Source: Planctomycetota bacterium (GTDB lineage: Bacteria > Planctomycetota > Phycisphaerae > Sedimentisphaerales > Anaerobacaceae). From it: 38,307 nt of DNA. Positions within the stretch are counted from its first letter, which is position 1. Every line of letters begins with the position of its first letter. Below the pieces are notes generated by a model that saw nothing but the letters and a program-made list of their open reading frames with translations, did not search any database and had not been told where the DNA came from. Shown piece after piece: positions 10,153 to 35,444 of this stretch. The position numbers and the translations under genes were made by a program. The stretch spans positions 1-38,307 of the forward strand of contig JADFMM010000025.1 in assembly GCA_022563885.1 (NCBI GenBank), read 5' to 3'.

Positions 10153-10219
10153 GGCAAGGGTGCGTCTCAACTGTTGGTTACACTCGACTGCTAACCTTGT
10201 CAGAAACCGGGAACGTCGC

Positions 10220-11098
10220 ATGAAACCCTTCATGGCCACGTCGTCACTGATTTTTCGCCAGCGGGCGGTCCTGTTGCTATCGGTCCTGTTGCTGGGGCTC
10301 ACCAGTGCCGGTTGTTCATCGAAGGACGATGGAAAGGAACATCGTGCGACGCGGAAGAGCCGAAAGTTCTTCAAGCAGGGGGACGCCACCTATCTCTGGG
10401 GTGGCGATGACCCGACTCAGCATTTTCGGGTGGACAACCTCATTCTCGATCCGAATCAGTTCCACTATCGGCTCGGAAGAGAATTTTTTTCCGCCCTCCT
10501 TGTCCCTGAGTTCACCTCGGCCGCCGAGACGGATCGCTGGTTGACCGACGGCAGTTTCGTGCTCGGACTGCAGGTGGGAGAGGAGGTCAAGGCCTACCCC
10601 CTCGACCTGCTCAGAGATCATGAGGTCGTGAACGACGTGGTCGGCGGCGAACCCATCTTTGCGGCCTATTGCGTGCTGGCCGACTTGGGGGCCATCTACC
10701 ATCGTCGCATCGACGGGCGGGTTCACACCTTCGCGTTGAGTGGCTACACCTACTACGATCCGCGGCTTTGGAACGGTCAAGATGGCTTCATCCTGTGGGA
10801 TCGAGAGACGGAGAGCCTCTGGTGGCCCCTGATAGGCAAGGCCGTCTCAGGGCCGCTCCTGCATACGCCGCTGAAGGTCTACAATCAACGTCGGTGGGCG
10901 CAGACGACCTGGGGCTCATGGAAGGCGAACCACCCCAATACCCTGGTGCTGGAACGGGGCCAGGATTTCGAGCGGCCCAAGACCTGGCCGGCCTATGAGA
11001 TCGAGACCCTCGCTACAAAAACCGAAGATAGAGAATCAGAGGTCGGCTTGGCACCACGGTGGGGTGAGAACACCGTGATTGAACCCGACTCCCCTTAG
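10220..11098 (+). CDS. DUF3179 lipoprotein
   Basis: A 292-residue DUF3179 protein. Start 10220 is chosen because it gives a lipoprotein signal ending in the lipobox LTSAGC; the frame is open back to 10082, but that part overlaps the sulfatase gene. ATG 10232 would also keep the lipobox. The family core is present: ILDPNQFHYRLGREFFSALL, DGSFVLGLQVGEEVKAYPLD, DHEVVNDVVGGEPIFAAYC, FALSG and WDRETESLWWPLIGKAVSG. The usual YCPLCG motif has become YCVLAD, keeping the first cysteine (C151) but not the second. DUF3179 function is unknown. It sits between two sulfatase genes and probably shares a transcript with the first. Confidence 0.85.
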   Translation: MKPFMATSSLIFRQRAVLLLSVLLLGLTSAGCSSKDDGKEHRATRKSRKFFKQGDATYLWGGDDPTQHFRVDNLILDPNQFHYRLGREFFSALLVPEFTSAAETDRWLTDGSFVLGLQVGEEVKAYPLDLLRDHEVVNDVVGGEPIFAAYCVLADLGAIYHRRIDGRVHTFALSGYTYYDPRLWNGQDGFILWDRETESLWWPLIGKAVSGPLLHTPLKVYNQRRWAQTTWGSWKANHPNTLVLERGQDFERPKTWPAYEIETLATKTEDRESEVGLAPRWGENTVIEPDSP

Positions 11099-11292
11099 CG
11101 TTGGGGCAAGACAAGAACGCCTTAGTTAGGTAGTCCGCCACTGATCACTGATAGTTGTTTGGCCCTTGCACGGCCCGCTTCCATGGGTTAACCTTCCGGG
11201 CATGGCTTGCTCCCATCAGATTCTTTATCTCGGTCAAGAGGCCAATCTCCCCTTCAAGCCTCGGCCATCAAATTCAAAAGAGAAAGGCTAAG

Positions 11293-12699
11293 ATGGACAA
11301 ACCACGATTTTACCCAATGGCGTGTGTCTGTGTGGCGGCCTGTTGGGCATGTGGTAGCCTGCTGGCTCAATCGGACGCTTCGGGCAGTCGCAGCCCAGAG
11401 ACGCCGCCGAATATCATCATTGTCTTCGCCGACGATCAGGGATATCAGGATCTCGGTTGCTTCGGTTCGCCGAATATCAAGACGCCCAACATCGATCGAC
11501 TGGCTCGCGAGGGGATGCGCTTCACCAGTTTTTACTCGGCCTATTGCGTCTGCTCGGCCTCGCGCGCCGCGCTGATGACAGGATGCTATCAGCCCCGCCT
11601 CAACATGCCGGGCGTCCTCGGACCGCGGTCGAAGGTGGGCCTGCATCCCGATGAGGTGACCATCGCCGATCTGCTCAAGACCAAGGGCTACGCGACTATG
11701 TGCATCGGCAAGTGGCACCTGGGGGACAAGCCGGAAACGCTGCCCACGGCCCAGGGATTCGATCACTATTTCGGCTTGCCCTACAGCAATGACATGGCCC
11801 GCATCAAGGGCTGGGGCAACGGCCCCAAGGATCTCGACAAGATCTGGGCATTGAAGAAATGGGATGTCTACAAGAATGAACTCTACCGGGATGCCACTGT
11901 CGTGGAAGCGCCGGTCAATCAGGTGACTCTGACCGATCGTTATACGGAAGAGGCCGTCCAATTCATACTGAAGAACCGCGACAAACCCTTCTTCCTCTAC
12001 TTCCCGCAGACCATGGTCCATGTGCCGCTCTTTGTCTCGGACGATCGCTATGATCCGGACCCCAACCAGGCCTACCGCCTGACCATGGAACATGTCGATT
12101 GGTCCGTCGGTCAGATACTGGAGACGCTTGATGACCTGAATCTCGCCGACAACACCTGGATCGTCTACACCTCGGACAACGGTCCCTGGTTGAGCAAGAA
12201 ACACCATGGAGGCAGCGCCTTGCCTCTGCGTGCGGGCAAAGGAACGACCTACGATGGTGGGATGCGGGTGCCGAGTGTCATGCGTTGGCCCCAACGAATC
12301 CCGGCCGGCGCCACCTGCGACGAGGTAGCCAGCACGATCGATCTATTGCCGACCATCGCATCGATCGTCGGGGCGGCATTGCCCGACCATCCCATTGATG
12401 GCCTGGATATTGGAGCGCTGCTCAGTGATCCGACCCAACCCTCCCCGCACAGAGAAGCCGGTTTCTTCTACTACAAGAACAACAAGGTGGAAGCCGTTCG
12501 CCAGGGCAAGTGGAAGCTTCGCGTCGCGAGCAAAGAAGGAGTGGAACTCTACGACCTCGATGCAGACATCGGCGAGGCCATTAACCTGGCTGAGTCGCAC
12601 CCTGCGACGGTCGAAGAGCTTCGGGCACTGATTGCCCGCTATGATGCGGATCTAAAGGCCAATACTCGGCCGGTGTGGCGGGCGGCCAAACGGCAGTAA
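11293..12699 (+). CDS. Secreted arylsulfatase
   Basis: A 468-residue formylglycine sulfatase. ATG 11293 follows an AAAGG box and opens a signal peptide (ACVCVAACWACGSLLAQ); the extension to 11155 is not signal-like. The metal site is in IIVFADDQGYQDLGCFG. The activation motif reads C87-S-A-S-R91-AALM-TG, so the middle residue is alanine rather than proline, an allowed variant. GKWHLGD, YTSDNGPW, HHGGSALPLRAGKGTTYDG and the C-terminal KLRVASKEGVELYDLDADI match the arylsulfatase A / GALNS-like branch common in PVC bacteria. Likely substrates are sulfated polysaccharides. It differs clearly in branch from the sulfatase at 8.7 kb, so the two probably act on different sulfate positions. Confidence 0.9.
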   Translation: MDKPRFYPMACVCVAACWACGSLLAQSDASGSRSPETPPNIIIVFADDQGYQDLGCFGSPNIKTPNIDRLAREGMRFTSFYSAYCVCSASRAALMTGCYQPRLNMPGVLGPRSKVGLHPDEVTIADLLKTKGYATMCIGKWHLGDKPETLPTAQGFDHYFGLPYSNDMARIKGWGNGPKDLDKIWALKKWDVYKNELYRDATVVEAPVNQVTLTDRYTEEAVQFILKNRDKPFFLYFPQTMVHVPLFVSDDRYDPDPNQAYRLTMEHVDWSVGQILETLDDLNLADNTWIVYTSDNGPWLSKKHHGGSALPLRAGKGTTYDGGMRVPSVMRWPQRIPAGATCDEVASTIDLLPTIASIVGAALPDHPIDGLDIGALLSDPTQPSPHREAGFFYYKNNKVEAVRQGKWKLRVASKEGVELYDLDADIGEAINLAESHPATVEELRALIARYDADLKANTRPVWRAAKRQ

Positions 12700-12760
12700 T
12701 CAGTCACTTCAATAATCAGTAATCAGTGACTTCCGCCCCCGAATACTGACTACTGATGAC
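12697..12760. repeat. ATCAGT-word intergenic repeat
   Basis: At least four ATCAGT/ACTGAT words, partly as direct repeats of AATCAGTxACTTC, start within the sulfatase stop codon. Related words follow other stops in this window (11141-11152, 31835-31870, 38203-38208). There is no dyad strong enough for an intrinsic terminator. Confidence 0.5.
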
Positions 12761-13037
12761 TTTAAGTCAATGTTAATGAAGGAGTTATGTGGGGATGTTA
12801 TTTGCACGCCACGAGCAACGAAACGCCAGGTCGTCTATATTTGGCTTCATGGATGATTGGGTGCCGCGGTTTTGGGCCGCCACCCGCCGCACTTTTACTC
12901 CGCCCTTCACAAATTACCCAGAAAGGACACATTCTCGGAACCTTCGCTCTTCTCACTACGTTCCTGATGGCATCAACTATCGTAGATGGTCTAGAGTATA
13001 CATGGTCAATAAAAGCGCCTAACCAACGGAGTATGCT
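12700..13037. other. Intergenic region with ATCAGT repeat and a doubtful small ORF
   Basis: Right after the sulfatase stop, 12697-12760 holds repeated ATCAGT words: AATCAGTCACTTC, then TAATCAGTAATCAGTGACTTC, then TACTGACTACTGATGAC. After it, an AAGGAG box (12779-12784) precedes ATG 12795, which opens a 75-codon frame ending at 13022 (MLFARHEQRNARSS...). I recognise no family and it has no signal peptide. An overlapping frame starting at ATG 12787 is equally anonymous. GGAG at 13028-13031 belongs to the DUF3179 gene that follows. Confidence 0.4.
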
Positions 13038-14141
13038 ATGGTTGCCCATCCTCGTTGCTTGACCCTATTGATCGTTTCCCTTGTGCTTCCTGTCTATGCT
13101 CAGGAGGGAGGAGATGCATCGGAACCGACCGAGTTTTCTGTGAATTGTCGCAATTATTTCACCTACGGACAGTTCGACGCGGCTGTTATTAGCGGAGGTC
13201 CACCGCCAGATGGGATTCCTCCAATTGAGCAACCGGGTTACGAAAGCGTTGCCGATGCGAGCGTCTGGCTGGATCCGGAGGATCGGGTATTCGTCGTTGA
13301 ACTCTCAGGTGAGGTGTTGATCATTCCGCAACCCATTATGGTGCGTCACGAAATCGTAAACGGGTCATTCAACGGACGTCCCGGGTCTTTTACCTACTGT
13401 CCCTTGGCCGGGGTAGCCATCGGCTATTACACCGATTTTAGCGACCCCAACACCACCTTTGGCACCTCAGGTAGCCTACTCAATGGGGACCTGGTCATGT
13501 ATGACCGACAATCCTCAAGTTACTGGCCGCAGATCCTCGGTGAGGCAATCAATGGCGATTATCGCGGCGCCAAGCTTGAAGCCTTCCCGGTATACTGGGC
13601 GCAATGGGCACAGGCCGAAGCCGCCTATCCGGATGCCACAGTCCTATCACGTGATTCCGGATTTTCCTCCACGTACAGCTTTGATCCCTATGGCGACTAT
13701 ATCGACGAGAGGGGACACTATTTTAATGAGAGAACCTGGCCGGCGATTATGAATACGGATGATCGTCTCCACCCCAAGCGCCCGGTGATCGGCATCAAAA
13801 CCTCCTGTGGCCGAGCAGCGATCGTCAAGGATCATTTAGGACCTGCGCGACCGGTCTTAAACATAGACGTGGCCAATGCCCCCGTCGTCGCTTTCTATGA
13901 TGCTGCCCTGGGCACAGTGCGCACATTTTCACGCATCCATGGCGATACAGTCTTAGAGTTTGCGCAGAATAATGGCAAAACCGTGGATCAAAACACCGGC
14001 ACCGTGTGGAATCACAAAGGGCAAGCCATTTCCGGCCAATGGAGCGGCGCACAACTAAAGCCGACTGAATCCATGGAGTCCTTTTGGTTTGCCTGGATCG
14101 CCTTCTACCCGGATTCGCTGTTGATAGGGGCCCCAAATTGA
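13038..14141 (+). CDS. DUF3179 protein, secreted
   Basis: A 367-residue protein with GGAG seven to ten bases before ATG 13038 and a Sec signal (CLTLLIVSLVLPVYAQE). The DUF3179 core is more canonical than in the 10.2-kb copy: VADASVWLDPEDRVFVVELSG, VRHEIVNGSFNGRPGSFTYC, GDLVMYDRQSSSYWPQILGEA and YPDATVLSRDSGF. The YCPLAG motif keeps the first cysteine (C121) and lacks the second. Unlike the other copy it has no lipobox, so it should be released to the periplasm or outside. It also has a long insert and a C-terminal extension (about residues 240-367). Function is unknown. It is a clear relative, but not a recent duplicate, of the 10.2-kb protein. Confidence 0.85.
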   Translation: MVAHPRCLTLLIVSLVLPVYAQEGGDASEPTEFSVNCRNYFTYGQFDAAVISGGPPPDGIPPIEQPGYESVADASVWLDPEDRVFVVELSGEVLIIPQPIMVRHEIVNGSFNGRPGSFTYCPLAGVAIGYYTDFSDPNTTFGTSGSLLNGDLVMYDRQSSSYWPQILGEAINGDYRGAKLEAFPVYWAQWAQAEAAYPDATVLSRDSGFSSTYSFDPYGDYIDERGHYFNERTWPAIMNTDDRLHPKRPVIGIKTSCGRAAIVKDHLGPARPVLNIDVANAPVVAFYDAALGTVRTFSRIHGDTVLEFAQNNGKTVDQNTGTVWNHKGQAISGQWSGAQLKPTESMESFWFAWIAFYPDSLLIGAPN

Positions 14142-19209: not shown

Positions 19210-19625
19210 AGAGATTCGTTTGGGGTAACCGTCACAGGGATACTGTCCGCATTTCCTGGTTCGAGCTTCGCTAGAATTGTATATTCCACCGGAAGGATTG
19301 AAGGGCACGAAGGGCTGCCGCCAATTTGCAACTGCCATCTGCCACAATTAGGATCGTTGGCATCGGCGTCAGCCCTTCCCTATCTTCATTTTCTTCCCGT
19401 GCAATTATCCTTTGAGCGAAGCTCAAATTATGGCAATTTTGTTTTCCTGTAAACGCCTATGCGTTTCGTTTGGGTATTCTACCCTCAGCGTCAAAATGCA
19501 ATCTGATCCTACCTGGCTCCAGTGGTTTTCCCGCTTGATTTGCCAGCGATCGGGGGATAGAATTGGCCTTTTTAGGTACGTAATCAAGATTCATCTCATT
19601 TTGCCCGTACTGGTCAGTGTAAGTG
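19210..19625. other. Intergenic region with hairpin and promoter candidate
   Basis: No gene is supported. A perfect small hairpin lies at 19411-19427, where TTTGAGC and GCTCAAA pair around GAA, followed by a T-rich but interrupted stretch; it could end the upstream transcript. A promoter candidate lies at 19535-19563. A 76-codon frame at 19412-19642 is not recognisable and overlaps the promoter and the next start. Confidence 0.4.
19535..19563 (+). promoter_or_regulatory. Candidate sigma-70-like promoter
   Basis: TTGATT (19535-19540) and TAGAAT (19558-19563) are separated by exactly 17 bases, matching four of six and five of six consensus positions. Transcription would start near 19570, giving a leader of about 55 bases before the DUF1592 start. 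This is consensus matching only, and planctomycete promoters are poorly defined. Confidence 0.35.
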
Positions 19626-22600
19626 ATGATTTCTTTCTCTAGAAATTCCAGACATGACTGTGGGCGCCTTTCGGTGTTCTCTCTTTCCTCTCCCCCCGGT
19701 GATTCGGGTCTCTTCTGCTTGAAGCCGTGCCGTTTGTGGGCCGCGTCGTGGGCAGGGCTGTGTTTTATCTCAGTGTTCGCGGCGTCGGGTCTGGGTACTC
19801 AGTCCCTTGAAATGGAAGGCTCCTTCGACCAGCGTGCCGTTCCCCTCTTCGAGCAATTCTGTTTCAAGTGCCACTCGAGCAAGGGGGCAAAGGGCGACAT
19901 CAACCTGGAATCGCTGGCCGGGAGTGCCCAGTTCGCCGCTGATTTTGGTTCCTGGGAGTTGGTGGTGGCGGCACTGAAGGAAAAGCAAATGCCTCCCGAG
20001 GATGAGCCACAGCCCAGTGGCGTACAGCGTCGGCAACTGGTTCAGCTGCTTGAGGATGCACTGCGGCACACGGTCCAAGAGCAGGCAGGGGATCCCGGCC
20101 GGGTCGTTCTTCGTCGACTGACCAGCGCCGAGTATGCCTATACGATTGAAGATCTCACGGGCTTGAAGCTGGGATTGGAGAAGACCTTCCTCGGCGAAGC
20201 CGTCGGCGGAGAAGGGTTTTCCAATGTCGGTGACGTCCAGTTTATCCAGGATTCGGCGATCGAAAGGTTTCTCGATGCTGCCAAAACAGTGGCATCGCAT
20301 GCGCTGATCGGCGCCGGGCCGATCCAGTTCTACCAGGATCCGGGAAAGACGGGCCAGGAGCTTTCGGCGATCCATCGAATCAAGCGGATCTATCGCGCCC
20401 ATGGTTTCCGGACCGGGGCGGGGGAGGGGGCTGAGGCCTTCGGATTGGAGATGTACCCGAAGGCATTTTACGCCGCGTGGCGCTATCGCTATCGCAATCT
20501 GTTGGGCGAGGAGGACATGACGCTGGCGCAGCTGGCCCATGGCGAAGGCATCTCACCTCACTTCCTCGAACACATCTGGTCCGTCCTCGGTGATGACTTG
20601 CTCTTGTTCCCCGGCCGAGAGGTTGTGGAGGCGTGGCGGGCTCTTCCAGCGCCAAGCGCGAGAGCGCTCCTAACTGAGAAAACTGAGAAACAGGTTCGTG
20701 CCGCGTGCCAGGAGATCTATGTGCTGCTCGCCGGATGGCAACGCGCTCTCGCCGCCAACTCGAAGGACGACGAAGAGGCGCCGGTGTTGAGCGAGGGCGC
20801 TTTCCGACCGACTGTGAATCATGAGTTCAGGGTGCGGGTGAATTGGCCGCGTGATGCGACGGTCGCCTCAATCGAACTCTCCGTCATTCCGGCGGGTGGC
20901 GAGGACAGTCTCAGGCCGGCCATCCTGTGGAAGCAGCCGCGGGTCTTCATGCGATCGGCTCGAAGCGCCGACGACGCAGAAGAAAGGCGTCGGCCGTCGC
21001 CGAAACCCTTAAGAGAAATCGTCTCCGAAGAAACGGCTCGGCGCATGCGGTTCGGGCAGGGCCCGGAGGGATCGAGCATCGAGCCCAACGATTTCATGAC
21101 CGTCGGCGCCGTGACCCTGGCGATCGAGTTTCCCGTGCCGGCCGGCTCGCGCGGTGCGACTCTGGTGGTAGACGCTCAGCTTGATGTTGAAAGGGGCGAC
21201 GATTGTCTGGTCCGATGTGTGATCTCAGACGGCATCGTGGAAGGCGAGACCGTGGCATCGACGGGGGCGTCCTCGGCGCTGCTGGCGAACCCGGAGGGAC
21301 CGCAAATCGATTCGTGGAGGTCGGGCGTCGCCAAGCTGGTGCGGACGCTTCCTCAGGTCTCGCACCGAGAGGCGGCGCCTTCGGATCGCGATCCGATTCC
21401 GCTGCCCTTCGACAACACCTACAACACTCCCGAGCGGAATGCTTTTCACTACATCATCAAGTATCATCGCGACGACGCCTTTCTCACCGAGCATATTCTC
21501 GACGAGGCCACCCGCGATCGGCTCGATCAGGCCTGGACGGATCTGTTGACCGCGTTCGACTATCACGACACCTTCCTGGGTTTCATCGCCAAGAAGTTCG
21601 AGTTTGATCTGGAAGGTCGTAGTGTGGAAACGATCGACGGAGGCTTTGTCGACGGGCTGCCGGATGAAGCGCGGGAATTCGTGCGGCACGTCCTCGAAGA
21701 GTATAGAATGTCCAAGCGCCGCTTGCACGCCGTCCAGCCCAGTCATCTGGACGATGCGGTCGGTTTCGCACGGCAGGCATGGCGGCGACCGTTGAGCCAA
21801 AGGGAGGAGACCCGGCTGAGGTCATTCTATGCGTCCGTCCGCCGGGACCAAGAACTGGGTCACGCGGATGCGATGCGGGCCTTGCTGGCCCGCATCCTGG
21901 TCGCCCCCGCCTTTCTGTACCGGTTGGAGAACCCGCCCGAGGCCGCCGGCATGGTCGCGCTCTCCGATTGGGAACTCGCCAGCCGACTGAGCTATTTCCT
22001 GTGGTCTTCGAAGCCGGATGCGGAACTTCAGCGCGCTGCTGCGGCCGGCGAACTGCGAGACCCGGATCAACTCGCCCTGCAGGTGCGGCGTATGCTGCGC
22101 CATCCGAAGGCCCGCCGTCTGGCGGTGGAGTTCTTCGGTCAGTGGTTCGGGTTCTATCGCTTCGACGAATTCCGCGGGATTGACACGGAGCGCTTCACCG
22201 AATTCAACGATGAATTGAAATCGGCCCTGTACGACGAGGCGATCTCCTTCTTTGAATACATTGTCCGGGAAGGTCGGCCCATCGACGAAGTCCTCTTTGC
22301 CGATTACACCTTCCTGAACGAGCGACTCGCCCGGCACTATGGCATCGAACGGGACTCCGTGTCGGGTAGCGCAGTGGAGCGCGTCGATAACATAGGCCGG
22401 TTCAAACGGGGCGGTGTGCTGCGGCTCGGCGCCATTCTGGCCACGACCTCCGCTCCCCTGCGCACCAGCGCGGTCAAGCGGGGCGATTGGATTACCCGCC
22501 GGGTCCTGGGGACCCCCGTTCCACCGCCCCCCGGCGATGCGGGTTTCATCCCGGCCGATGATGTCCTTGACGATGGCTTGACCGTTCGTGAAAGATTGGA

Positions 22601-23045
22601 GGCCCATCGCAGCGATGCAACCTGCGTCAACTGCCATGCGCGGATCGATCCCCTGGGGTTTGCCTTGGAACACTTCGATCCGCTGGGCCGTTGGCGGGCC
22701 ACCTACCGGGACGGACGGGCCATCGACACGACCGGCGTGCTCAACACCGGCAGGGAGATTTCCGGTCTGGACGACCTGCGTGACTATCTGAAGGAGCAGG
22801 CAGCGTCGTTTCACCGCACCCTCTGTGTGAAGTTACTCGGATACGCATTGGGCCGTGGGGTATTGATTTCCGATCGGCCTCTGTTGGATCAGATGGTGGC
22901 AAGTGTCGTGTCGGACTCACGGTTTTCGAATCTCGTCGAACAGGTCGTCACCAGCACACAATTCCGCAACCAGCGTGGCCGAGATGCCGATTCCCGTGAC
23001 GCCGGCGCGGGTGACGTGGCGTCGTTATTAAGAGGCACAGAATGA
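19626..23045 (+). CDS. Large DUF1592-family multi-domain c-type cytochrome
   Basis: A 1139-residue relative of the protein at 0.3 kb. ATG 19626 is the likely start (GTG 19623 is adjacent); no strong binding site is visible. A hydrophobic stretch, [21 protein letters not shown], should act as signal. The domain order is PSCyt1 with C79-F-K-C82-H83 and [10 protein letters not shown], then DUF1587 ([18 protein letters not shown]). A long insert follows at about 200-600 ([18 protein letters not shown] and beta-rich sequence). Then come DUF1595 ([17 protein letters not shown]), DUF1592 ([17 protein letters not shown]), DUF1588 with [15 protein letters not shown] and C1000-V-N-C1003-H1004, and DUF1585. 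The insert makes it about 290 residues longer than the other copy. Its stop overlaps the DUF1552 start (ATGA), as in the first pair. Confidence 0.9.
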
Positions 23046-24418
23046 TGACATCAGCGGAAGGTTCTCAAGCCGATTTCCCCCTCTCCCGTCGAGGTTTTCT
23101 GCGCGGCGCTGCAGGCGTTTCCCTCACCCTGCCCTGGCTCGAATCGGTGCCGCTGCGCGGTGCAGATGCCGGAAGACCCTTGTCGAAGGGTGAACCGGAA
23201 AGGCCGCCGGTGCGATTTGCCTGCCTCTATTTTTCCAACGGCGTCGAACCCATTCATTGGTGGGCCAAGAAGAGGGGAGAGAAAACGGAAGTCGGTCCCG
23301 GACTGCAGCCCGTGCAGCCCTACCTCGATGACATCATCTTTCTGCGGGGCCTGTATAACGAGCAGGCCGCGCTCCATCAAAGCGTGCACCTTGGGCGCAT
23401 TCCCAATCTTCTCTCGGGCGCCTGGGTCAGCACGCGGCAAAGCGATATCCGGGTCGGCAGGACCATGGATCAAGTGCTGGCTCAGCAGATCGGAGACCAG
23501 ACGCCCGTTCCCAGTCTCATCCTGGGGATCGAGCCGACGGAGCTTCGTCTCGAGGATGGACTGTCCATGCTTTACGGTTCCTGCATCTCCTGGGCCTCCG
23601 AGACCAAGCCCGCGATGAAGGAGATCTATCCGGCGCGGGTCTTCGATCTGCTGATAGGCGACGGCACCGGGCGACGGCTCGACCGCAGCATCCTGGACCA
23701 GGTGTTGACCGATGCCAAGGATCTGCGTAGCAAGATCGCCACGGGCGACCAGCGGAAACTCGACGATTATCTAGAATCGATTCGCGACGTCGAGAAACGC
23801 ATCGAGCATGCGTCTCGCGAAGAACGGCTGGAGGGGTGGCGCCCCTCGCTGACCCGCCCCAATATGACCCGCCCCGCGGATAAGCTGCCTCAGAATATTC
23901 CGGAACATATGAAGTTGATGCTGGACCTCATCGTCCTCGCCTTCCAGATGGACAAGACGCGTGTTGTCACCTGCATGTTGAACAACGATCTCTCGCAGAT
24001 GAATTTCGGTTTTCTGGAAGGGGTCCGAGGCAGCCTCCATCTCGATCTGACGCACAACGGCCGCGATCCCGAACTCGAAGCGATGTACCTGAAGACGAAT
24101 CAGTTCCACACGCAGCAGTTCGCCTACCTCATCGACCGTATGAAGCAAATCGACGAAGGGGCAGGCTCGCTCCTGGACAATTCCATGCTCCTCTTCTGCT
24201 CAAACCTCTTCGACGGCGACCGCCATCAGGCCGATCACATGCCCATGTTGCTCGCCGGACGAGGCGGAGGAACCCTGAAAACGGGACGCATCCTAGACTA
24301 CATGGATAAAGGCGACGACAACCGCCGCGCCTGCAGCCTCTATCTCTCGCTCATGGATCGAATGGGAGTGAACTTACCGCAATTCGGTGACGCCGACCGA
24401 CGCCTGGTCGAGCTTTAA
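23042..24418 (+). CDS. DUF1552 protein with Tat signal, second copy
   Basis: A 458-residue protein, the same length as the copy at 2.8 kb but clearly diverged. The N-terminus has the twin-arginine motif [11 protein letters not shown] followed by [13 protein letters not shown] 23042 overlaps the preceding TGA. Family landmarks include [76 protein letters not shown] and the C-terminal [30 protein letters not shown]. It is expected to work with the DUF1592 cytochrome it overlaps, one partner exported unfolded by Sec and the other folded by Tat. Its molecular activity is not known. Confidence 0.9.
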
Positions 24419-24574: not shown

Positions 24575-26881
24575 ATGAAGACTGGATTACCACGAGACTT
24601 GCTACGGATAGGATTGATGATCGTCGTGGGCGTGGCAGGAATCGCCTCGGCGGCTGACAAGACCGGTGCTCGGGTCGCTCGGGTCGCTCCCCTAACCCTG
24701 GAACTCGGGCCTTATGTTCGATATGTCACGCCGACGAGTGCCGAGGTCCATTGGCGCACACGCCAGGCGTGCCCATCCGTTGTCGAGTATGGGCGGGCGG
24801 GACCCGGTGCAAAGCATTCACCGAGCATCGAATTGTCGCTGCAGCACCAGGGTGAAAACAAGCGGCGTTTGACGGATCTCCGGCCCAAGAAGCTCCATGT
24901 CATGACGCTCACCGGCCTGCTGCCCCACGAGGTGTATGCCTACCGGGTGGGGAGTGACGCCCAGGGACAAGGATGGCTGACACCCGTGTATGAATTGGAT
25001 ACCGCTTTGAATTACGCGGTGCCCCCATTGCAGACTGAGGGGACTCCCTTTGCGAATGACACGTTAAATCCGCAGGTACAGGCATTGGCCCGCCAGATCC
25101 TCGCCATGACCGGACTGAGCAAGGGATATTGTCTCGTGTGGGGAATCGCCGACGGGCAGTTGGCCTATGAATTGGCCCGCAACAGCCAATTGATCGTCGT
25201 TGGCGTGGATGCCGACAGGGACCGCGTCTCAAGGGTGAGAAACATCTTGTATCAGGCAGGCGTGTACGGCGAACGCATCACCCTGCATCATGTCTCCAGT
25301 TGGGCAGACGTTCCTTTTCCCAGTCACTTTGCCAATTTGATCGTCTCCGAACGTGCCTTCGCGAATGAAGGCTGTCCCGGCGATGCCCGTGACATGGTTC
25401 GGCTGCTGCAACCGAAGTACGGGACCGCGGTGTTGAGCCGCCGGACCCAGGGGGTAGACCGAATTGGATCTTGGCTGGAAGCCGCATCCTTTGATTTTCT
25501 GGAAGAACAGGACGCCAGGTTTGTCCACTACCGATTCACGAAGCCGCCGCTGCCGGGTACCGGTTCCTGGACCCACCAATATGGCGATGCGGGCAACAGT
25601 GCCAACAGTCATGAGAGTCTGAATGGCGTTTCGGCGACGGGTGAGTTGCAGGTCCAGTGGCTGGGTCACCCGGGGGCCGATTTCGGCATTGATCGCAACC
25701 CGCGTATGCCCGCCCCCCTCGCAGTCAGCGGCAAACTCTTCCACCAGGGCATGAATCGCATGGTGGCCATCGATTCCTACAATGGCGCGATTCTCTGGTC
25801 CTTGGAGATTCCAGATTTGCGGAGGGTCAACTTACCCAGAGATGCCAGCAACTGGTGCGCAGATTCGTCGTCCCTCTATGTTGCAGTTAAAGACAGATGC
25901 TGGGTGCTCGACCACGACCACGGAGACCTCAGACACGTTTTTGCTGTCCCACCAGGCCAAACGGGTGAGGCCTACGACTGGGGCTACGTGGCGCGGGCGG
26001 GCGAGGTATTATTGGGGAGTCAAGTCAAGCCCGGCATGGCCTATACCGGCTTTTGGGGCAAGTTGACCTGGTACGACAAGGCCCGTGGCGCGGGGGCCGG
26101 GAAAGTCTGCAGCGATGGGCTCTTTGGCTATGATGTCGCTTCCAAGAGCCTGCTTTGGAAATACCAGAGAGGCGTCATCATTAATACCACCATTGCGGCG
26201 CAAGAGAATCGATGCTATTTCATCGAGTCCCGAAACAGCGCGCTAAGTCGACAGAAAGACCGCCGGCTGAATGATCCCGATCTTTGGGCCGACCAATTCC
26301 TCGTGTCTCTCGACACCCAGACTGGAGCGATCCAGTGGGAAGTCCCTATTGACACGGCTGATGGAACAATCGTCTTTTTTCTCTCCTGTACAGACCGAAC
26401 GATCGTGGTTGCCTCCTCGGCTGAGGGAAAGTACCACCTCTATGGATTCGAATGCGCCACGGGAAAAATGGCGTGGCAGCAATCCCACAAGTGGACCAGC
26501 GACAACCACAGTGGGCATATGCAGCATCCGGTTCTCTTCGACAAGCGGGTCTACCTGGAGCCCTGCGGCTATGATCTCCTTTCGGGTGAATTGCTCACTT
26601 CCAGTGTGGGACGACACGAGGGGTGTGCGACTTACTGTGGCGTCGGCAATGCCCTTCTGTATCGTGGCGAGTCGCGGCGAATCTCCCTTTGGGATATGGA
26701 GGAGGACAAGGTGTCGAGCTGGTATAATCTCCGTCCCAGTTGTTGGCTCAGTGCCATTGCCGCCGACGGGATGGTGCTGTTGCCCGAAGGCGGTGGTGGC
26801 TGTAGCTGTGGCAATTGGCTGGAGACGTCTCTGGCCTTGCTTCCTGTGAACTCTGTTGGGCCTGCCCAACAAGGGCAGTAG
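24575..26881 (+). CDS. Exported fusion: FN3-like, methyltransferase-like and PQQ-like beta-propeller
   Basis: A 768-residue protein with AAGGA about eight bases before ATG 24575 and a Sec signal (GLMIVVGVAGIASA). Residues about 45-145 form a fibronectin-III-like domain of the purple-acid-phosphatase N-terminal type: GPYVRYVTPTSAEVHWRT, VVEYG, LTGLLPHEVYAYRV. Residues about 160-325 look like a class I SAM-methyltransferase fold: CLVWGIADGQLAYELA, IVVGVDADRDRVSRVRNIL, ITLHHVS, FANLIVSE, LLQPKYGTAVLS. The cofactor loop usually written GCGxGxLA is changed to GIADGQLA, so catalysis is doubtful. From about 390 on there are PQQ/BamB-like blades (LYHLYG..G..W type), ending in the cysteine motif C743-S-C745. 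An exported methyltransferase-like domain on a propeller is unusual. It heads a run of related genes; the next starts after 16 bases. Confidence 0.78.
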   Translation: MKTGLPRDLLRIGLMIVVGVAGIASAADKTGARVARVAPLTLELGPYVRYVTPTSAEVHWRTRQACPSVVEYGRAGPGAKHSPSIELSLQHQGENKRRLTDLRPKKLHVMTLTGLLPHEVYAYRVGSDAQGQGWLTPVYELDTALNYAVPPLQTEGTPFANDTLNPQVQALARQILAMTGLSKGYCLVWGIADGQLAYELARNSQLIVVGVDADRDRVSRVRNILYQAGVYGERITLHHVSSWADVPFPSHFANLIVSERAFANEGCPGDARDMVRLLQPKYGTAVLSRRTQGVDRIGSWLEAASFDFLEEQDARFVHYRFTKPPLPGTGSWTHQYGDAGNSANSHESLNGVSATGELQVQWLGHPGADFGIDRNPRMPAPLAVSGKLFHQGMNRMVAIDSYNGAILWSLEIPDLRRVNLPRDASNWCADSSSLYVAVKDRCWVLDHDHGDLRHVFAVPPGQTGEAYDWGYVARAGEVLLGSQVKPGMAYTGFWGKLTWYDKARGAGAGKVCSDGLFGYDVASKSLLWKYQRGVIINTTIAAQENRCYFIESRNSALSRQKDRRLNDPDLWADQFLVSLDTQTGAIQWEVPIDTADGTIVFFLSCTDRTIVVASSAEGKYHLYGFECATGKMAWQQSHKWTSDNHSGHMQHPVLFDKRVYLEPCGYDLLSGELLTSSVGRHEGCATYCGVGNALLYRGESRRISLWDMEEDKVSSWYNLRPSCWLSAIAADGMVLLPEGGGGCSCGNWLETSLALLPVNSVGPAQQGQ

Positions 26882-26897
26882 GAGATCGGTTCTGATC

Positions 26898-28328
26898 ATG
26901 AGTCGTTGGATGAAGCTATTTGATGTCGTCGCGAAAGCGCTCGCGTGTGTCCTGTTGGTCAGTCTCACACATCCCCTCCTGGGGGAAGATTGGCCGACCT
27001 ACCAGCACGACAATCGAAGGAGCGGTGTGACTGGCGAACAACTCCCGTTTCCCTTGCAGCGAATCTGGCAGACTCGTCCCGTTGCCCCCAAAACCGCATG
27101 GTCCGGTCCGGCCAAATGGGATTCCTATGCCAACATGGTGAACCTCAAGTCCATGCGCAATTTCGATCCGGTGTTTTATACCACGGCCGCGCAAGGCTAC
27201 GCCTATTATGGCAGCTCGATCGATGATGCCGTTCATTGCCTGCAACTCGAGACGGGGCGCGAGGCATGGGTCTTCTTTACCAACGGTCCGGTTCGCCTAC
27301 CCCCTACGTTTTATCAGGGCAGACTACTCTTTGGCTCTGACGACGGATGTGTCTACTGTATCGATGCCCTCTCCGGGCAACAGCACTGGAAGGTCCGCAT
27401 GTCAGATTCGCAGCGCAAGGTCCCTAACAATGGCAAGCTGATTTCAATGTGGCCCTGCCGTACCGGCGTGCTGGTTCAGGGAAATGTCGCCTACTGCGCC
27501 GGCTCCTTGCTGCCCTGGAAAAGCACCTATCTGTTTGCGATCGATGTGGGTACGGGTACCTGGCAGGGTAGCGGTCAGTATAAGAGGACCTATGAGCAGA
27601 TGACCGCTCAGGGGGCCATGTTTGCCTCCGCTGAGCATCTCTACCTATCACAGGGCCGCCAAGCACCCTTGATGTTCGATCTGCAGACCGGGGACCTGCT
27701 TAAGACAGTGGGAAACTCAGGATTTGGAGGCGTGTATGGCCTGCTGGCCGATGATTCAACCTTTGTGCATGGACATGGTCAGAATCATGGTCCTGAGGGA
27801 GCGATGCGTTTCTTTTCAGGGAAAACCCAAGATCAGTTGTTGTCCTATCCCCTGGCAACCTCCATCGTGGTCAACGGCAATAGGATTTACGTCCATGCCG
27901 ATCGCGTCCTTCGGGCGATTGTGCGAGATGAGTACATGCAGCTCCAGGCAGAAAAGACGCAGGCGCAAGCGGATTTGAAAGCAGACAAAAAGAAACTGAA
28001 GCAACTCGAACCGAATCCGTCCCGGCAAGACCAGGCCGCGGAGCTTGAACAACGGATACGAGCCACCACTGAGGAGATCAAACGCATTGACCGACAGATA
28101 CCGTCCTGTTTCTTGTGGACTGTGAACAGTGACTGCCACTTGTCACTCATTCTCACGGGAAGGACCTTGATTGCAGGCGGGGAAGACAAGGTTAATGCCT
28201 ATGACGCACAGTCGGGTCAAGAGATCTGGACGACCCGAGTGTCCGGCAGGGCGTATGGCTTGACGGCATCACAGGGGTGCCTGATTGTCAGTACGGATAG
28301 GGGTCAGATTAGCTGTTTTGGTCAGTAA
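26898..28328 (+). CDS. Exported PQQ-like beta-propeller protein with coiled-coil insert
   Basis: A 476-residue protein starting at ATG 26898 (ATG 26907 is possible), with a signal region ALACVLLVSLTHPLLGED. The mature part opens with DWPTYQHDNRRSGVTGEQLP, the standard start of PQQ-like propellers, and shows repeated blades such as GRLLFGSDDGCVYCIDALSG and RTLIAGGEDKVNAYDAQSG. Residues about 345-400 are highly charged and heptad-like (QAEKTQAQADLKADKKKLKQ and following), a coiled coil inserted between blades. A signature RKVPNNGKLISMWP near residue 179 is repeated in the 28.8-kb protein. It lies 16 bases behind the FN3/methyltransferase-like/propeller gene and is almost certainly in one operon with it. 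Whether it binds PQQ or is a purely structural BamB-like propeller is not clear. Confidence 0.8.
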   Translation: MSRWMKLFDVVAKALACVLLVSLTHPLLGEDWPTYQHDNRRSGVTGEQLPFPLQRIWQTRPVAPKTAWSGPAKWDSYANMVNLKSMRNFDPVFYTTAAQGYAYYGSSIDDAVHCLQLETGREAWVFFTNGPVRLPPTFYQGRLLFGSDDGCVYCIDALSGQQHWKVRMSDSQRKVPNNGKLISMWPCRTGVLVQGNVAYCAGSLLPWKSTYLFAIDVGTGTWQGSGQYKRTYEQMTAQGAMFASAEHLYLSQGRQAPLMFDLQTGDLLKTVGNSGFGGVYGLLADDSTFVHGHGQNHGPEGAMRFFSGKTQDQLLSYPLATSIVVNGNRIYVHADRVLRAIVRDEYMQLQAEKTQAQADLKADKKKLKQLEPNPSRQDQAAELEQRIRATTEEIKRIDRQIPSCFLWTVNSDCHLSLILTGRTLIAGGEDKVNAYDAQSGQEIWTTRVSGRAYGLTASQGCLIVSTDRGQISCFGQ

Positions 28329-28332
28329 AGGA

Positions 28333-28728
28333 ATGAATAGGCCTTTGGAGGAGTGGGGTCACTGGAAATTGGAACGCTTCAGTGGCTACGTCGATTACCA
28401 AAAGACCGTTGAACTCGGTCACCATCAAGGCCGAGTCATCCTGGACCTCGGCGAAGTACATCATCTCGCCCATGTCTGGATCAATGGCGTCGACGTGGGT
28501 AGCCGGCTCTGGCCTCCGTTCGAGTTCGAAATCACCCGGTATCTGCAAACCGGCAGCAATACCGTTAGAGTCCGAGTGGGCAACCTGACCAACAACAACC
28601 ACGGTCAGAACGTCAAATCCGGTCTGTTCGGGCCGGTTCGTATCATACTTGAAGAGCCGGTCGAAGCCCGATCGAATCCTCCGACAGGCTCCTGGATTGA
28701 TCTTGCACGTCTTGAATCTCATAGATAG
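28333..28728 (+). CDS. Orphan glycoside-hydrolase-type sugar-binding domain (possible remnant)
   Basis: A 131-residue frame starting four bases after the propeller gene stop. The AAAGGA before ATG 28333 touches the start, so initiation is uncertain; the frame is open further upstream without a better start. The sequence GYVDYQKTVELG, VILDLGEVHHLAHVWINGVD, GSRLWPPFEFEITRYLQTG and NTVRVRVGNLTNN matches the jelly-roll sugar-binding domain of GH2 and the C-terminus of GH106-type (alpha-L-rhamnosidase) enzymes. There is no signal peptide and no catalytic domain, so it is either a remnant of a lost glycoside hydrolase or a small accessory protein. The frame is intact across the whole domain, which argues against long decay. 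Confidence 0.55.
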   Translation: MNRPLEEWGHWKLERFSGYVDYQKTVELGHHQGRVILDLGEVHHLAHVWINGVDVGSRLWPPFEFEITRYLQTGSNTVRVRVGNLTNNNHGQNVKSGLFGPVRIILEEPVEARSNPPTGSWIDLARLESHR

Positions 28729-28836
28729 CATGGGGCATTGGCTTTGCAAGCGGTTGGCTGTTCTCATGCGACCTTTGTGTGAATAGACCGACCAACCGGG
28801 AGGCAAAACATCAACAAACTCTAAAGGAGACGGCAG

Positions 28837-31830
28837 ATGGTCAGCAAAAAAGGGTACCAGTCTCGTGTGGGTTGTATGTTCTTGGTTCTTGTCAGCGCCG
28901 CGTGGGGGGCGGATGATTCCGCGGTGAAATTCAGGACTACCCTAGACAGGCTCGATATCAAACGAGATATCTGCGTGGTCCTAGGAATGCCGCCGACGGA
29001 ACTGCGACCTTCCCTGCTCGATTTTATCCTCGAAAGAGAGTTGACCGTCTATTTCCAGTCACCCGATAGGGATGAAACGAACACCCTGCGCGAAGCAGCC
29101 GATAGGCGGGGGCTTCTCGGCACACGTATTTTCGTTGAAGAGGGAGATTGGAAGTCCATTGGCCTGGCCACCAACCTTGCGGGCTTGGTGCTGGTTTCGG
29201 CATCTGCCCAGGACAGAGTCACAGACGAAGAACTGCTGCGCGTAGTACACCCCGGAGGCAAGATCATCACGGGTCTCAGAGAGATCACCAAGGCGCGCCC
29301 AAGCGATACCGACAGTTGGAGTCATCCCCATCATGGCCCGGACAATAATCCCCAATCCACCGATCAACGGGCACGCGCGCCCTACCTGACGCAGTTTTTG
29401 GCCGATCCGTTGTTCTGTCCCATGCCGGAAGTCTCGGTGGCCGCCGGAGGCAGGGTCTTTCGGGCCTTCGGGCACATTGCCCACAAGGCCAATCAGAACG
29501 CCATGCTGAATACCTTGATAGGTGTCAACGCGTACAACGGCATGATCCTCTGGCAGCGCAAACTGCAAGAGGGATTCATGATTCATCGCAACACCATGAT
29601 CGCGACACCGGAAACCCTGTACATGGCGGACGCCGAATCCTGTAAGCTGATTGACACGGCAACCGGGAACGTCAAGGGCAGCATCGTCATTCCACCGGGA
29701 GTCGCGGATGGACAGGTGTGGAAGTGGATGGCCATGGAAGAGGGCATACTTTATGCCCTGATTGGAGGGGATGAGGCCTCTATTGAAACGCAGCCCTCGA
29801 ACAGACCGGGCTTGGGCCACTGGCCCTGGGGCATGTGGCAGGGGCACGACTACAAAGATCCCCAGACAAACTTCGGATCAGGACGGACCTTCGTCGCCAT
29901 CGATCCCGGTACCGGTAAGATTCTCTGGAAGTACACAAGTGAAGACTATTGGGACAGTCGAGGCGTCTGCATGAAGGACGGACGGATCTACTGCTACAGT
30001 CCCGAAAAACACCTTGCCTGTCTAGACACCCAAAAGCGAGAGTTGGTCTGGCAAAACTCTGATGCCGATCTCCTCGAGGCGATTGGCAAGCATGGACGCG
30101 CTCAACACTATTTCACCGGCTACGCCACAACCGCCTACATGAAGTGTAACGATGACTACATCTTCTTCGCCGGCCCGCAACGCGATCGGCTCGTGGTGGC
30201 CAGCGCCGAGAATGGATGCCTCCTCTGGCAGAAGCAGGGGGGCAATCTTCAGTTGGTATTGAGGGAGGACGGAGTCTACGCCGCAGGCCCCAAGGGAGCG
30301 GGCGCCATATACGCCTATGAAACCGGAGAGGTCATCGCCCAACTGCCCAATCGTCGCGCCTGCACCCGGGCGACCGGGAGTATCGATAGCGTCTTCTTCA
30401 GAACGCCGGGCGGGACCGTGCGCCTCGATACGGCTTCCAACACGGCACAGCACATCGCGCCGATGCGTCCTCCCTGCCAGGACGGCGTGATCATTTCCGA
30501 CGGACACCTCTACTGGGGTCCCTGGATGTGTGGTTGCCAGTTGTCTCTCTACGGTCACATAGCGCTGGCGCCAGCCGAGAACTTCGATTTTCGACCGGCC
30601 GTGGACGATGCCAGACTGGAGAGGGGCCCAGGTGACGTCGAGTCGGTAGCAGATTTCAACATCGACGCCACAGATTGGACCACCTATCTCGGTAATAACC
30701 AACGCATGCCCCAGACAGACATCACCATTCCGCGCCATGTAGAATTGAAGTGGCAATTTGATTCGTCTACCGCCATGCCGACTGCCCCGGTGGTGGCAGG
30801 CAATACGGTGTTTGTCTGCGATCGCAAGGGTGTGGTCCAGGCGATCGACGCCCAGGGGCAAGAGATATGGAAGGCCTTCACAGGTGGGGCCATCTACTTT
30901 CCGCCGGTTGTCGCACAGGGGAGGGTTTATGTCGGCTCCGCAGACGGGTGGGTGTATGCATTGGAGGCCAAAACGGGGAGACGCTTGTGGCGTTTTAGGG
31001 TCGGCCCTTCGGCGCGTCGGATTCCCGTCTATGGAAAACTCATCTCCACCTGGCCGGTAGCGGGGGGCGTGGTCGTGCAGGATGGCGTGGTATTCGCTGC
31101 CGCGGGCATTGCCCATTACGACGGCACCTATGTCGTTGCTCTGGATGCAGTGACAGGGAAAGTCAAGTGGTATAACGACACATCGGGGACCCTCTCCGAA
31201 AAGGTCAATAGTGGTATCAGTTTGCAGGGCCACCTGTGGATACAAGATAACGAACTCCGTTTCACCGGGGGCGGCGTCTATGAAATGGCCCGCTATGCCT
31301 TGGATACCGGCAAGTGTCTCAACACGCCCCACGAGGGACTCAACTCTAAGTTTCACACCGCGTTTTATGCCTATTTTCCGGAGTACGGGCAATATCCGTC
31401 ACTCCACTATGGATACCCCGACGGCAATCTCCTTCAGTACAATCCGAGCTACGAAGGGAGCCGGCACAGCACCCTGGCGCTCAAGGGACCGATCCTAAAA
31501 TCGGCCGCGAACCAGGCCAAGCCCACAGGGCTTTCGGATCGCCCCAGGGACGGAGCCAGAAGAGCGCCTCAGCGCAACACGCTCTGGCAGGAGGAGCCCG
31601 GCATCCGTTACAAGGGATTTGTAGTGACTTCCGATGTCCTGCTCGCCGCAACCGTCACGAGCACAGACGGCGGGGTCGCCTCCTCCTTGGTGGCGATTCA
31701 GATCGAGGATGGCAAGACGATTTGGCGCCAGGAGTTGCCTGCCCCCGTGGTCAAGGGCGGCATTGCTGTGGACAGCCAGGCACGCATTGTGGTGGCTCTA
31801 GAGAACGGACAAGTTGTTTGTCTGCAGTGA
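28837..31830 (+). CDS. Exported methyltransferase-like domain plus double PQQ-like propeller
   Basis: A 997-residue protein with AAAGGAG before ATG 28837 and a short signal (VGCMFLVLVSAAWGADD). Residues about 45-150 follow the layout of the methyltransferase-like domain at 24.6 kb but are more decayed: ICVVLGMPPTELRPSLLDFI, LTVYFQSPDRDETNTLREAA, GLLGTRIFVEEG, LATNLAGLVLVSA, VVHPGGKIITGL. The glycine-rich SAM loop is gone. A first propeller follows at about 185-590 (IGVNAYNGMILWQRKL, GTGKILWKYTSEDYWDSRG), ending in C565-G-C567. A second propeller at about 615-997 has GRVYVGSADGWVYALEAKTG and the signature RRIPVYGKLISTWP, shared with the 26.9-kb protein. It looks like a composite of the two upstream genes and is the likely core of the cluster. 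Substrate and cofactor are unknown. Confidence 0.78.
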   Translation: MVSKKGYQSRVGCMFLVLVSAAWGADDSAVKFRTTLDRLDIKRDICVVLGMPPTELRPSLLDFILERELTVYFQSPDRDETNTLREAADRRGLLGTRIFVEEGDWKSIGLATNLAGLVLVSASAQDRVTDEELLRVVHPGGKIITGLREITKARPSDTDSWSHPHHGPDNNPQSTDQRARAPYLTQFLADPLFCPMPEVSVAAGGRVFRAFGHIAHKANQNAMLNTLIGVNAYNGMILWQRKLQEGFMIHRNTMIATPETLYMADAESCKLIDTATGNVKGSIVIPPGVADGQVWKWMAMEEGILYALIGGDEASIETQPSNRPGLGHWPWGMWQGHDYKDPQTNFGSGRTFVAIDPGTGKILWKYTSEDYWDSRGVCMKDGRIYCYSPEKHLACLDTQKRELVWQNSDADLLEAIGKHGRAQHYFTGYATTAYMKCNDDYIFFAGPQRDRLVVASAENGCLLWQKQGGNLQLVLREDGVYAAGPKGAGAIYAYETGEVIAQLPNRRACTRATGSIDSVFFRTPGGTVRLDTASNTAQHIAPMRPPCQDGVIISDGHLYWGPWMCGCQLSLYGHIALAPAENFDFRPAVDDARLERGPGDVESVADFNIDATDWTTYLGNNQRMPQTDITIPRHVELKWQFDSSTAMPTAPVVAGNTVFVCDRKGVVQAIDAQGQEIWKAFTGGAIYFPPVVAQGRVYVGSADGWVYALEAKTGRRLWRFRVGPSARRIPVYGKLISTWPVAGGVVVQDGVVFAAAGIAHYDGTYVVALDAVTGKVKWYNDTSGTLSEKVNSGISLQGHLWIQDNELRFTGGGVYEMARYALDTGKCLNTPHEGLNSKFHTAFYAYFPEYGQYPSLHYGYPDGNLLQYNPSYEGSRHSTLALKGPILKSAANQAKPTGLSDRPRDGARRAPQRNTLWQEEPGIRYKGFVVTSDVLLAATVTSTDGGVASSLVAIQIEDGKTIWRQELPAPVVKGGIAVDSQARIVVALENGQVVCLQ

Positions 31831-32091: not shown

Positions 32092-32844
32092 ATGGACAAG
32101 AACCTCGACATCATCACCTATGCCGTTTCGTTAATCATCAAGGCGGCCATTATGGCCTCGCGATTCTCAGGCAGGGCTCGTAAGCGAAGCCTCAAACGCC
32201 TTGCAACCATGGACGGCGACACCAAAGACAAGGAATGCCTCTTCCTAAAAGACAAGGTCTATCTGCTCGAAATGCAGGTCTCTATTTTTCAGAAGCGAAT
32301 CAAATAGCAGCAGAAAAAGCCCCGCTACACCATGCGGGAACGGTTGTTCATACTCTGGCATATGTCTGTAACTCCACTGGAAGGACCCAGGACTGGATGG
32401 ATCAATAATGCCCTGGAAAGTGCCATTGAAACGCATGGAGCACCCAAACACATTGTCTCAGACCAGGTAAGGGTCTATACGGGAGAGGTCTTTGCGAAAT
32501 TGCTGGAGCAACGGAACATAAAGGCACGTCTGGGAGTTCTAGGAAAAAATGGACCCATTTCAGTCACAGAGAGAGTGATCAAAACCTTAAAATATGAATG
32601 GCTCAAACGTGTGCCGATCATCAAGGACTTTGACCATCTAACCGAGCTGTGTCGTGAGTTTGAGAGCTTGTGTAATACGTGGCGCCCTCACATGGGTTTG
32701 GAAGGCTTTCGGCCTGGTGATGTCTATAACCAAGGAAAGCCAATGAAACCTGATCGTAACTCGAAATCGGTTCCGAGCAATATCGAACGACATCTGTTCC
32801 GCGAGACAAGAGTCACTGGGTATCGCCTGAAAAGTGTTGCCTAG
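32092..32844 (+). pseudogene. Integrase-core (DDE) transposase remnant
   Basis: Two pieces lie in one frame. The first (32092-32307) ends at an in-frame TAG; the frame resumes as QQKKPRYTMRERLFILWHM, the usual start of this transposase type. It then jumps to the second half of the catalytic core: PLEGPRTGWINNALESAIE, HGAPKHIVSDQVRVYTGEVF, ISVTERVIKTLKYEWLKRVP and a closing NTWRPHMGLEGFRPGDVY. The second aspartate (SDQ) and the glutamate (TERVIKTLKYE) of the D-D-E triad are present, but the part carrying the first aspartate is missing. So an internal deletion as well as a stop has killed it. The element ends at the inverted repeats around it. Confidence 0.8.
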
Positions 32845-34688: not shown

Positions 34689-35444
34689 ATGACAAAAATA
34701 AACCAGCTAATCAGCCAATGGCCAGCAGGCTCCTTGATGACGGCCGTGTATCTTCAGAAACGAGGAATCAGTCCTGCTCTGCGCCGGAGATATGTGGATA
34801 GCAACTGGCTGGAATCCGTGGGCCGGGGCGCTTATAAGCGCCCCGGCGATTCGGTGGACTGGCTGGGGGGAGTTCATACGCTGCAAACGCAACTAAAGAT
34901 GACAGTCCATCCCGGTGGGAAGACAGCCCTGGCCCTCAAGGGATCCTCGCACTTCGTTCCTCTCGGACCGGCCGGAGCCTTCCTCTTTGGGAAACGGGGG
35001 GACCGTCTGCCTAAGTGGTTCACGGAATACCATTGGCCTGAGAAGGTCTTGTACAAACCAACCGCACTATTTGAGGGTGATCTGTCAAAGTATATGACGG
35101 ACCACAAACACAAGGAACTGGGTATCAGGATAGCGAGTCGGGAGTTGGCTTTCCTGGAGATGTTGTACCACCTGCCGGCAAGACAGGGGTTCATGGAAGC
35201 GTTCTCTATCATGGAGAATCTTGCCACTCTACGACCCAAAGTCGTACAAAAGCTCCTGGAAATGTGTCGGTCGGTAAAGGTGAAGCGACTCTTTCTATTC
35301 TTGGCCCAAAGAGCCGAGCATCCATGGTTCAAAAAGCTAAACACAGCCGATCTTGATCTGGGTAAGGGGAAACGCATGATCATCAAGCATGGTGTGCTGG
35401 ACAAAACATATGCGATCACCGTCCCCAAGGAACTGACCGGATGA
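34689..35444 (+). CDS. abiEi: AbiEi-family type IV antitoxin and autorepressor
   Basis: A 251-residue protein of the AbiEi_3 type. The N-terminal part, INQLISQWPAGSLMTAVYLQ, then RGISPALRRRYVDSNWLE and VGRGAYKRPGDSVDW, is the winged-helix DNA-binding region. The rest (GGKTALALKGSSHFVPLG, REKAFLEMLYHLP-like, MENLATLRPKVVQKLLEMC) is the C-terminal antitoxin domain. Family members repress their own operon and neutralise the nucleotidyltransferase toxin without direct contact. The stop overlaps an ATG at 35441 that would be the natural toxin start. The gene is intact and complete. Confidence 0.9.
   Translation: MTKINQLISQWPAGSLMTAVYLQKRGISPALRRRYVDSNWLESVGRGAYKRPGDSVDWLGGVHTLQTQLKMTVHPGGKTALALKGSSHFVPLGPAGAFLFGKRGDRLPKWFTEYHWPEKVLYKPTALFEGDLSKYMTDHKHKELGIRIASRELAFLEMLYHLPARQGFMEAFSIMENLATLRPKVVQKLLEMCRSVKVKRLFLFLAQRAEHPWFKKLNTADLDLGKGKRMIIKHGVLDKTYAITVPKELTG

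Follow-up and report, generated by a model that had tools for sequence, protein, structure and literature searches.

Three neighboring genes on a contig from a Planctomycetota bacterium raise the question of what the fold of a class I SAM methyltransferase (MTase) is doing in proteins that are predicted to be exported. The genes lie in a stretch of 38,307 nucleotides, here called the window, and their open reading frames were present where a preliminary description of the sequence had placed them: q1 at 24575..26881, q2 at 26898..28328 and q3 at 28837..31830, all on the plus strand, as are the domains described below. The gap between q1 and q2 is 17 bp, and these two genes are probably co-transcribed. 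The gap between q2 and q3 is 509 bp.

The q1 product (768 aa) begins with a Sec-type signal segment at residues 1-27 (24575..24655), which is hydrophobic, has an AxA-like site and is modeled as a helix at residues 7-26. This segment is followed by a domain resembling Fn3 and the N-terminal domain of purple acid phosphatases at residues 41-142 (24695..25000), which is all-beta in the AlphaFold model, then by a class I MTase-like Rossmann domain at residues 164-323 (25064..25543) and by a propeller, propeller A, at residues 326-757 (25550..26845). The q2 product (476 aa from its ATG) had been described as a propeller alone; we found a signal segment and a propeller, and we refer to this stand-alone propeller as propeller B. 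The q3 product (997 aa) contains an MTase-like domain homologous to that of q1 at residues 27-156 (28915..29304), a propeller A at residues 157-600 (29305..30636) and a propeller B homologous to q2 at residues 601-997 (30637..31827). All three proteins passed the Pfam cut-off of 27.6 bits for PQQ_2 (PF13360), with scores of 28.3, 62.6 and 129.5 bits, and q3 matched in four stretches. The order of signal, MTase-like segment and propeller that the preliminary description gave for q1 and q3 was borne out, but the Fn3-like domain of q1 and the second propeller of q3 had been missed, and what was counted as a three-propeller cluster has four propeller domains. An exported unit of an MTase-like domain, propeller A and propeller B is present in two forms in the window, split between q1 and q2 in one and fused in q3 in the other.

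Elsewhere in the window, two PSCyt1/DUF1592-type cytochrome proteins (175-4199 and 19623-24418) each precede a DUF1552 (HXXSHH) protein; this is the usual planctomycete gene pair, here duplicated. At 8755-14141, genes for two sulfatases and two DUF3179 proteins are arranged alternately. An integrase core domain fragment is located downstream of the propeller cluster (32332-32844), and an AbiEi-type antitoxin (Pfam AbiEi_3 and AbiEi_3_N) is encoded at 34689-35444, with the next gene, at 35485, possibly being its partner.

A scan of GTDB genomes identified 38 orthologs of q1 in Planctomycetota, Opitutia/Verrucomicrobiales and Lentisphaerales. In every ortholog locus that reached far enough (37 of 37), q2 directly followed q1. 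The paralogs had two domain orders, MTase-A-B (q3, L026 and L028) and B-MTase-A (L021, L022 and L023), and q1 followed by q2 represents the first of these divided between two genes. In three Phycisphaerae loci (L040, 2758-5760 on the minus strand; also L042 and L046), the q1-q2 pair was adjoined by a protein of ~1000 aa with a match to the middle domain of hydrazine synthase alpha, an F5/8 type C domain and cytochrome c-like motifs.

A hydrophobic segment without charges, together with a plausible Sec-type cleavage site, was present at the N-terminus of each of q1, q2 and q3. The Sec signals claimed for q1 and q3 were predicted for both proteins, and one was predicted for q2 as well. Nor were signal peptides absent from the homologs, as 27 of 37 q1 orthologs were positive under a strict test and about 31 of 37 under a looser one, and those that failed mostly had uncertain starts. 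The proteins used as negatives for the signal test gave 2 positives among 22 ABC ATPases and none among 9 ThiF proteins.

Structure prediction supported the presence of a class I MTase fold in both of the proteins for which it had been claimed. The q1 model (pLDDT 83.8, pTM 0.87, from a 42-sequence alignment) had this fold at residues 164-323, with a pLDDT of about 90. The modeled strands (183-189, 205-212, 235-239, 255-258, 284-290, 309-312 and 316-323) were interspersed with helices, and the order of elements was that of a class I MTase, including the final beta6-beta7 hairpin. Foldseek matched this part of q1 to 3dlc (E 4e-9), RebM, TleD and other SAM MTases, down to E 1e-6, and 3dlc was also found from sequence by the family profile (E 4.6e-4). 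The q1 domain was judged by Foldseek, this profile match and its counterpart in q3; the VIA-align matches listed for q1 were all propellers. The q3 model was weak overall (39.5) because only seven sequences were usable, and its propellers are consequently assigned by homology. Residues 32-150 of that model reached a pLDDT of 55-78, and VIA-align superposed residues 27-156 on many SAM MTases (Z 12-15, rmsd 2.2-2.5 Å, 120-128 residues), including 2o57 (Z 14.8, rmsd 2.5 Å, 125 aligned).

The family HMM also picked up two ordinary MTases, encoded by neighboring genes, whose motifs are intact, and in the genome of the window a relative of 294 residues matched Methyltransf_25 below the cut-off (E 1e-4). 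Together, the models and the profile matches show that the ancestor of the MTase-like domain was a class I SAM methyltransferase. The domain resembles members of that class such as 3dlc and 2o57 in its Rossmann-like seven-strand fold, in its strand order, hairpin included, and in detectable sequence homology. It differs from them in being exported, in being fused to propellers and in having an eroded motif I in nearly all members.

The extent of this erosion was assessed in 90 aligned relatives. The site of motif I reads CLVWGIADGQL in q1 and CVVLGMPPTEL in q3, neither of which fits the SAM-binding motif. Full motif I (D/E-x-G-x-G-x-G) was present in a single relative, L087, and the acidic residue of the motif was kept in two relatives and lost in 88. 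GxGxG was retained by 24 of the 90 and the acid that follows beta2 by 49, and in 72 the beta4 Asp was replaced by Asn. The glycine loop was absent from the Rubripirellula/Rhodopirellula orthologs. L087 (frame +0, 1011 aa) is itself an exported MTase-propeller, with motif I reading DLGCGDG and an acid after beta2. The preliminary description held that an exported copy should not methylate. This is a sound expectation for the family, consistent with the erosion of motif I in 89 of 90 relatives, but it is not proved for every member, L087 being both exported and complete in motif I.

L087, with its signal peptide, and the relatives that retain the glycines or the beta2 acid would fit a reading in which some members still bind SAM or a nucleotide-like ligand outside the cytoplasm (for example released SAM, SAH or an adenylated compound), which they may use for sensing or methylation. 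The loss of the motif I acid in almost all relatives and the missing glycine loop in the Rubripirellula/Rhodopirellula orthologs argue against residual binding, and SAM is not known to reach the periplasm. We consider this reading improbable.

Loss of the motif has not been accompanied by loss of the domain. Omega for the MTase domain was 0.20 in q1 and in q3, a rough value based on few substitutions in comparison with the close relative L033, and R222, Y231-G232 and A253-N254 (q1 numbering) were invariant or nearly so in the orthologs. The MTase-like domain is retained under purifying selection and is not decaying, and because omega was about 0.2 in both genes we favor reuse of the domain over its decay. 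The domain could still be an inert leftover that serves as a spacer or stabilizer of propeller A and has no ligand or partner, the propellers then being generic PQQ-like scaffolds. Its poor conservation (30% mean pairwise identity among q1 orthologs), its variable length among relatives and the lack of any Pfam or NCBIfam model matching it in the window proteins are all compatible with such a role. That the domain is kept in the members examined, in two domain orders, and that selection has preserved it with an invariant R222, Y231-G232 and N254 make the inert role unlikely in our judgment. The proposal in the preliminary description that the fold has been reused outside the cytoplasm thus fits the selection data, and the structural or ligand-binding role that it named is a possible one.

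The preliminary description had overlooked the better-conserved propeller A, its cysteines and the genes linked to the unit. Propeller A is the best-conserved part of the unit, with a mean pairwise identity of 55% among q1 orthologs as compared with 35% for the Fn3 domain, and contains the near-invariant stretches PGADFGxDRNPRMPAP, LFHQGMNRM and HxxHxQH. It also carries a four-cysteine signature (26624..26809 in q1) formed by C684, C723 (in RPSC) and C743 and C745 (in CSC), which are nearly invariant in the orthologs and have equivalents in q3 at C509, C547, C565 and C567. The pattern R[GP]xC...CxC was found in 67 of 96 family frames, in 2 of 134 other long frames and in none of 1920 shuffles. 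The signature cysteines could be merely structural disulfides.

We compared the window proteins with known families that share parts of their architecture. They have the repeat type and fold of BamB/YfgL and PQQ dehydrogenases, along with PQQ_2 matches above the Pfam cut-off, but add the MTase-like and Fn3 domains and the four-cysteine signature. Identity with either family was rejected, as q3 scored 65.1 bits against the NCBIfam cut-off of 480 for PQQ dehydrogenase, and scores for BamB were no higher than 88.6 bits against a cut-off of 285. Residues 52-140 of q1 matched the N-terminal domain of purple acid phosphatases (Pur_ac_phosph_N, PF16656; E 9e-9, above the Pfam cut-off), but the metallophosphatase catalytic domain of these enzymes was not found in q1.

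The best Foldseek match of the q1 propeller was the tetrathionate hydrolase of Acidithiobacillus (6l8a, 7cqy), an extracytoplasmic eight-bladed propeller (PMC10859504). This enzyme, in which Asp325 is the catalytic residue, accounted for the eight best matches of the q1 model (E down to 1.7e-17), with the next propeller at E 1e-7, and q1 has both the PQQ_2-type propeller fold and the export features expected of it. In VIA-align, however, Rv3035 (9p3g; Z 29.0, rmsd 3.1, 337 aligned) was ahead of 7cqy (Z 25.9, rmsd 3.5, 367 aligned), and by sequence the match was weak (E 0.01). The hydrolase also has no MTase-like domain, shares at most 16% identity with q1 and has a cysteine-independent catalysis (PMC10859504). 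We rejected identity with tetrathionate hydrolase and treated the likeness as a fold resemblance only.

If propeller A were nevertheless an enzyme acting on polythionates or related sulfur oxyanions in the manner of tetrathionate hydrolase, the linked genes described below would import and use the released sulfur. The Foldseek ranking is in keeping with this, as are the ModB/ModC-like parts encoded by the linked genes, which resemble sulfate/thiosulfate transporters too. The lead of other propellers in VIA-align, the weak sequence support and a cysteine-independent reaction in the reference enzyme, when the MTase-propeller family is marked by cysteines, all weigh against it, and we regard it as very improbable. 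The window proteins are a variant form of exported PQQ_2-type propellers, and for the proposed system no description was found in open-access papers. No described function for the arrangement was found in Pfam, NCBIfam, PADLOC, the PDB or open-access papers (most subscription papers being outside this scope), in agreement with the preliminary description. A role in anti-phage defence was considered and rejected, as PADLOC matched none of the MTase-propellers or the cysteine protein described below; the ThiF-like protein had generic E1-domain matches only.

In 23 q1 loci the third gene (+2 position) encoded an exported ~390-residue protein with the motif C[KQS]VPVFRYALERW after the signal, a CSC motif later and a C-terminal hydrophobic segment. 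This cysteine protein, exemplified by L171:10626-11897 and encoded in 23 further loci, usually at the +2 position, had no match in Pfam, NCBIfam or the PDB. Genes recurrently found near it encode an FtsX permease, a LolD/MacB-like ATPase, a two-domain ModA-like binding protein, a ModB-like permease, an ABC ATPase and a ThiF/MoeB-like protein. A ThiS/MoaD-like carrier of ~92 residues ending in GG adjoined 9 of 10 ThiF-like genes, against a background of 50 such proteins among 5243 small ORFs. Pairs of a carrier (ending P[IM][SA]GG) and a ThiF/MoeB-like E1 were located beside a two-domain ModA-like protein at L169:888-1157 + 1165-1905 and at L047:14592-15627.

The linked genes have the ModA-, ModB-, ModC-, MoeB/ThiF- and MoaD/ThiS-like components of molybdate/tungstate ABC importers and MoaD/MoeB sulfur-transfer proteins. 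They differ in that the binding protein is fused or paired and has conserved cysteines (C310 and C329, in 9 of 9 ModA-like proteins), and in that they are linked to exported MTase-propellers and an unnamed cysteine protein. Conserved cysteines are, to our knowledge, unusual for an oxyanion binder.

The MTase-propeller was present in 29 of 149 genomes of the phylum, a count of 32 matches minus three that covered the Fn3 part alone. All 24 of the 149 genomes with the cysteine protein and all 26 with the fused or paired ModA-like protein were among these 29 (hypergeometric values of 4e-23 and 5e-26, which ignore phylogeny). The control family DUF1552 occurred in 52 genomes, just 14 of which were within the 29, and chance was rejected as the source of the link. 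A dedicated gene set tends to accompany the MTase-propeller unit in a genome. Four genomes (L034-L037) were exceptions, having q1 and q2 but neither the cysteine protein nor the ModA-like pair. In the genome of the window itself, contig C93 carries the cysteine protein, FtsX and ATPase genes beside a q3-type paralog, and contig C353 carries ThiS-, ThiF-, ModA-, ModB- and ModC-like genes together. These contigs are not that of the window, and for this genome the link is one of content, not of adjacency.

A link of this kind might reflect shared ancestry or lifestyle instead of a common function, given that the hypergeometric test does not correct for phylogeny and that both families are concentrated in certain lineages. 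We think this quite unlikely, as the adjacency of the genes recurs across many families and in a Verrucomicrobiales genome, two-domain ModA-like and MTase-propeller matches are 45 bp apart in G030, the three relatives from the same order have none of the three families, and DUF1552 had no comparable overlap.

For reuse of the fold we propose the following. The MTase-like domain would no longer methylate and would act as a binding or docking module, either as a substrate lid or as a partner contact. Propeller A would use its cysteines and conserved Arg/His residues to do chemistry or bind a ligand, which we suggest with low confidence to be a metal or a sulfur/metal oxyanion species. Handling of the ligand may take place outside the cytoplasm and involve the cysteine-rich CxVPVFRYALERW protein. 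The paired ModA-like binding protein and the ModBC-like transporter may import or sense the ligand, and the ThiF-like E1 with its ThiS/MoaD-like carrier may connect its handling to sulfur activation. To the joint proposal of a binding or docking MTase-like domain, a propeller A that is the working part and membership in a system with the gene set, we give even chances. Any one substrate for the propellers is far less probable than this, and the connection to metal or sulfur chemistry through the ModA- and ThiF-like proteins, which derives from family annotation, is put forward with low confidence. More speculatively still, and with the balance tilted against it, the unit may belong to an undescribed PVC-wide extracytoplasmic system with a four-cysteine metal/sulfur site on the propellers, which would be supplied or serviced by the paired, cysteine-containing ModA-like protein and its ABC importer, the ThiS-ThiF pair, an FtsX/LolD-type transporter and the exported cysteine protein.

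These proteins are a clear and recurring example of a cytoplasmic enzyme fold, dependent on a cofactor, that was relocated outside and selectively kept after its cofactor motif was lost. The near-perfect genome-level link to a specific set of transport and sulfur-transfer genes makes the role of the propellers testable, and offers an initial clue to the function of the many unannotated propellers that PVC bacteria export.
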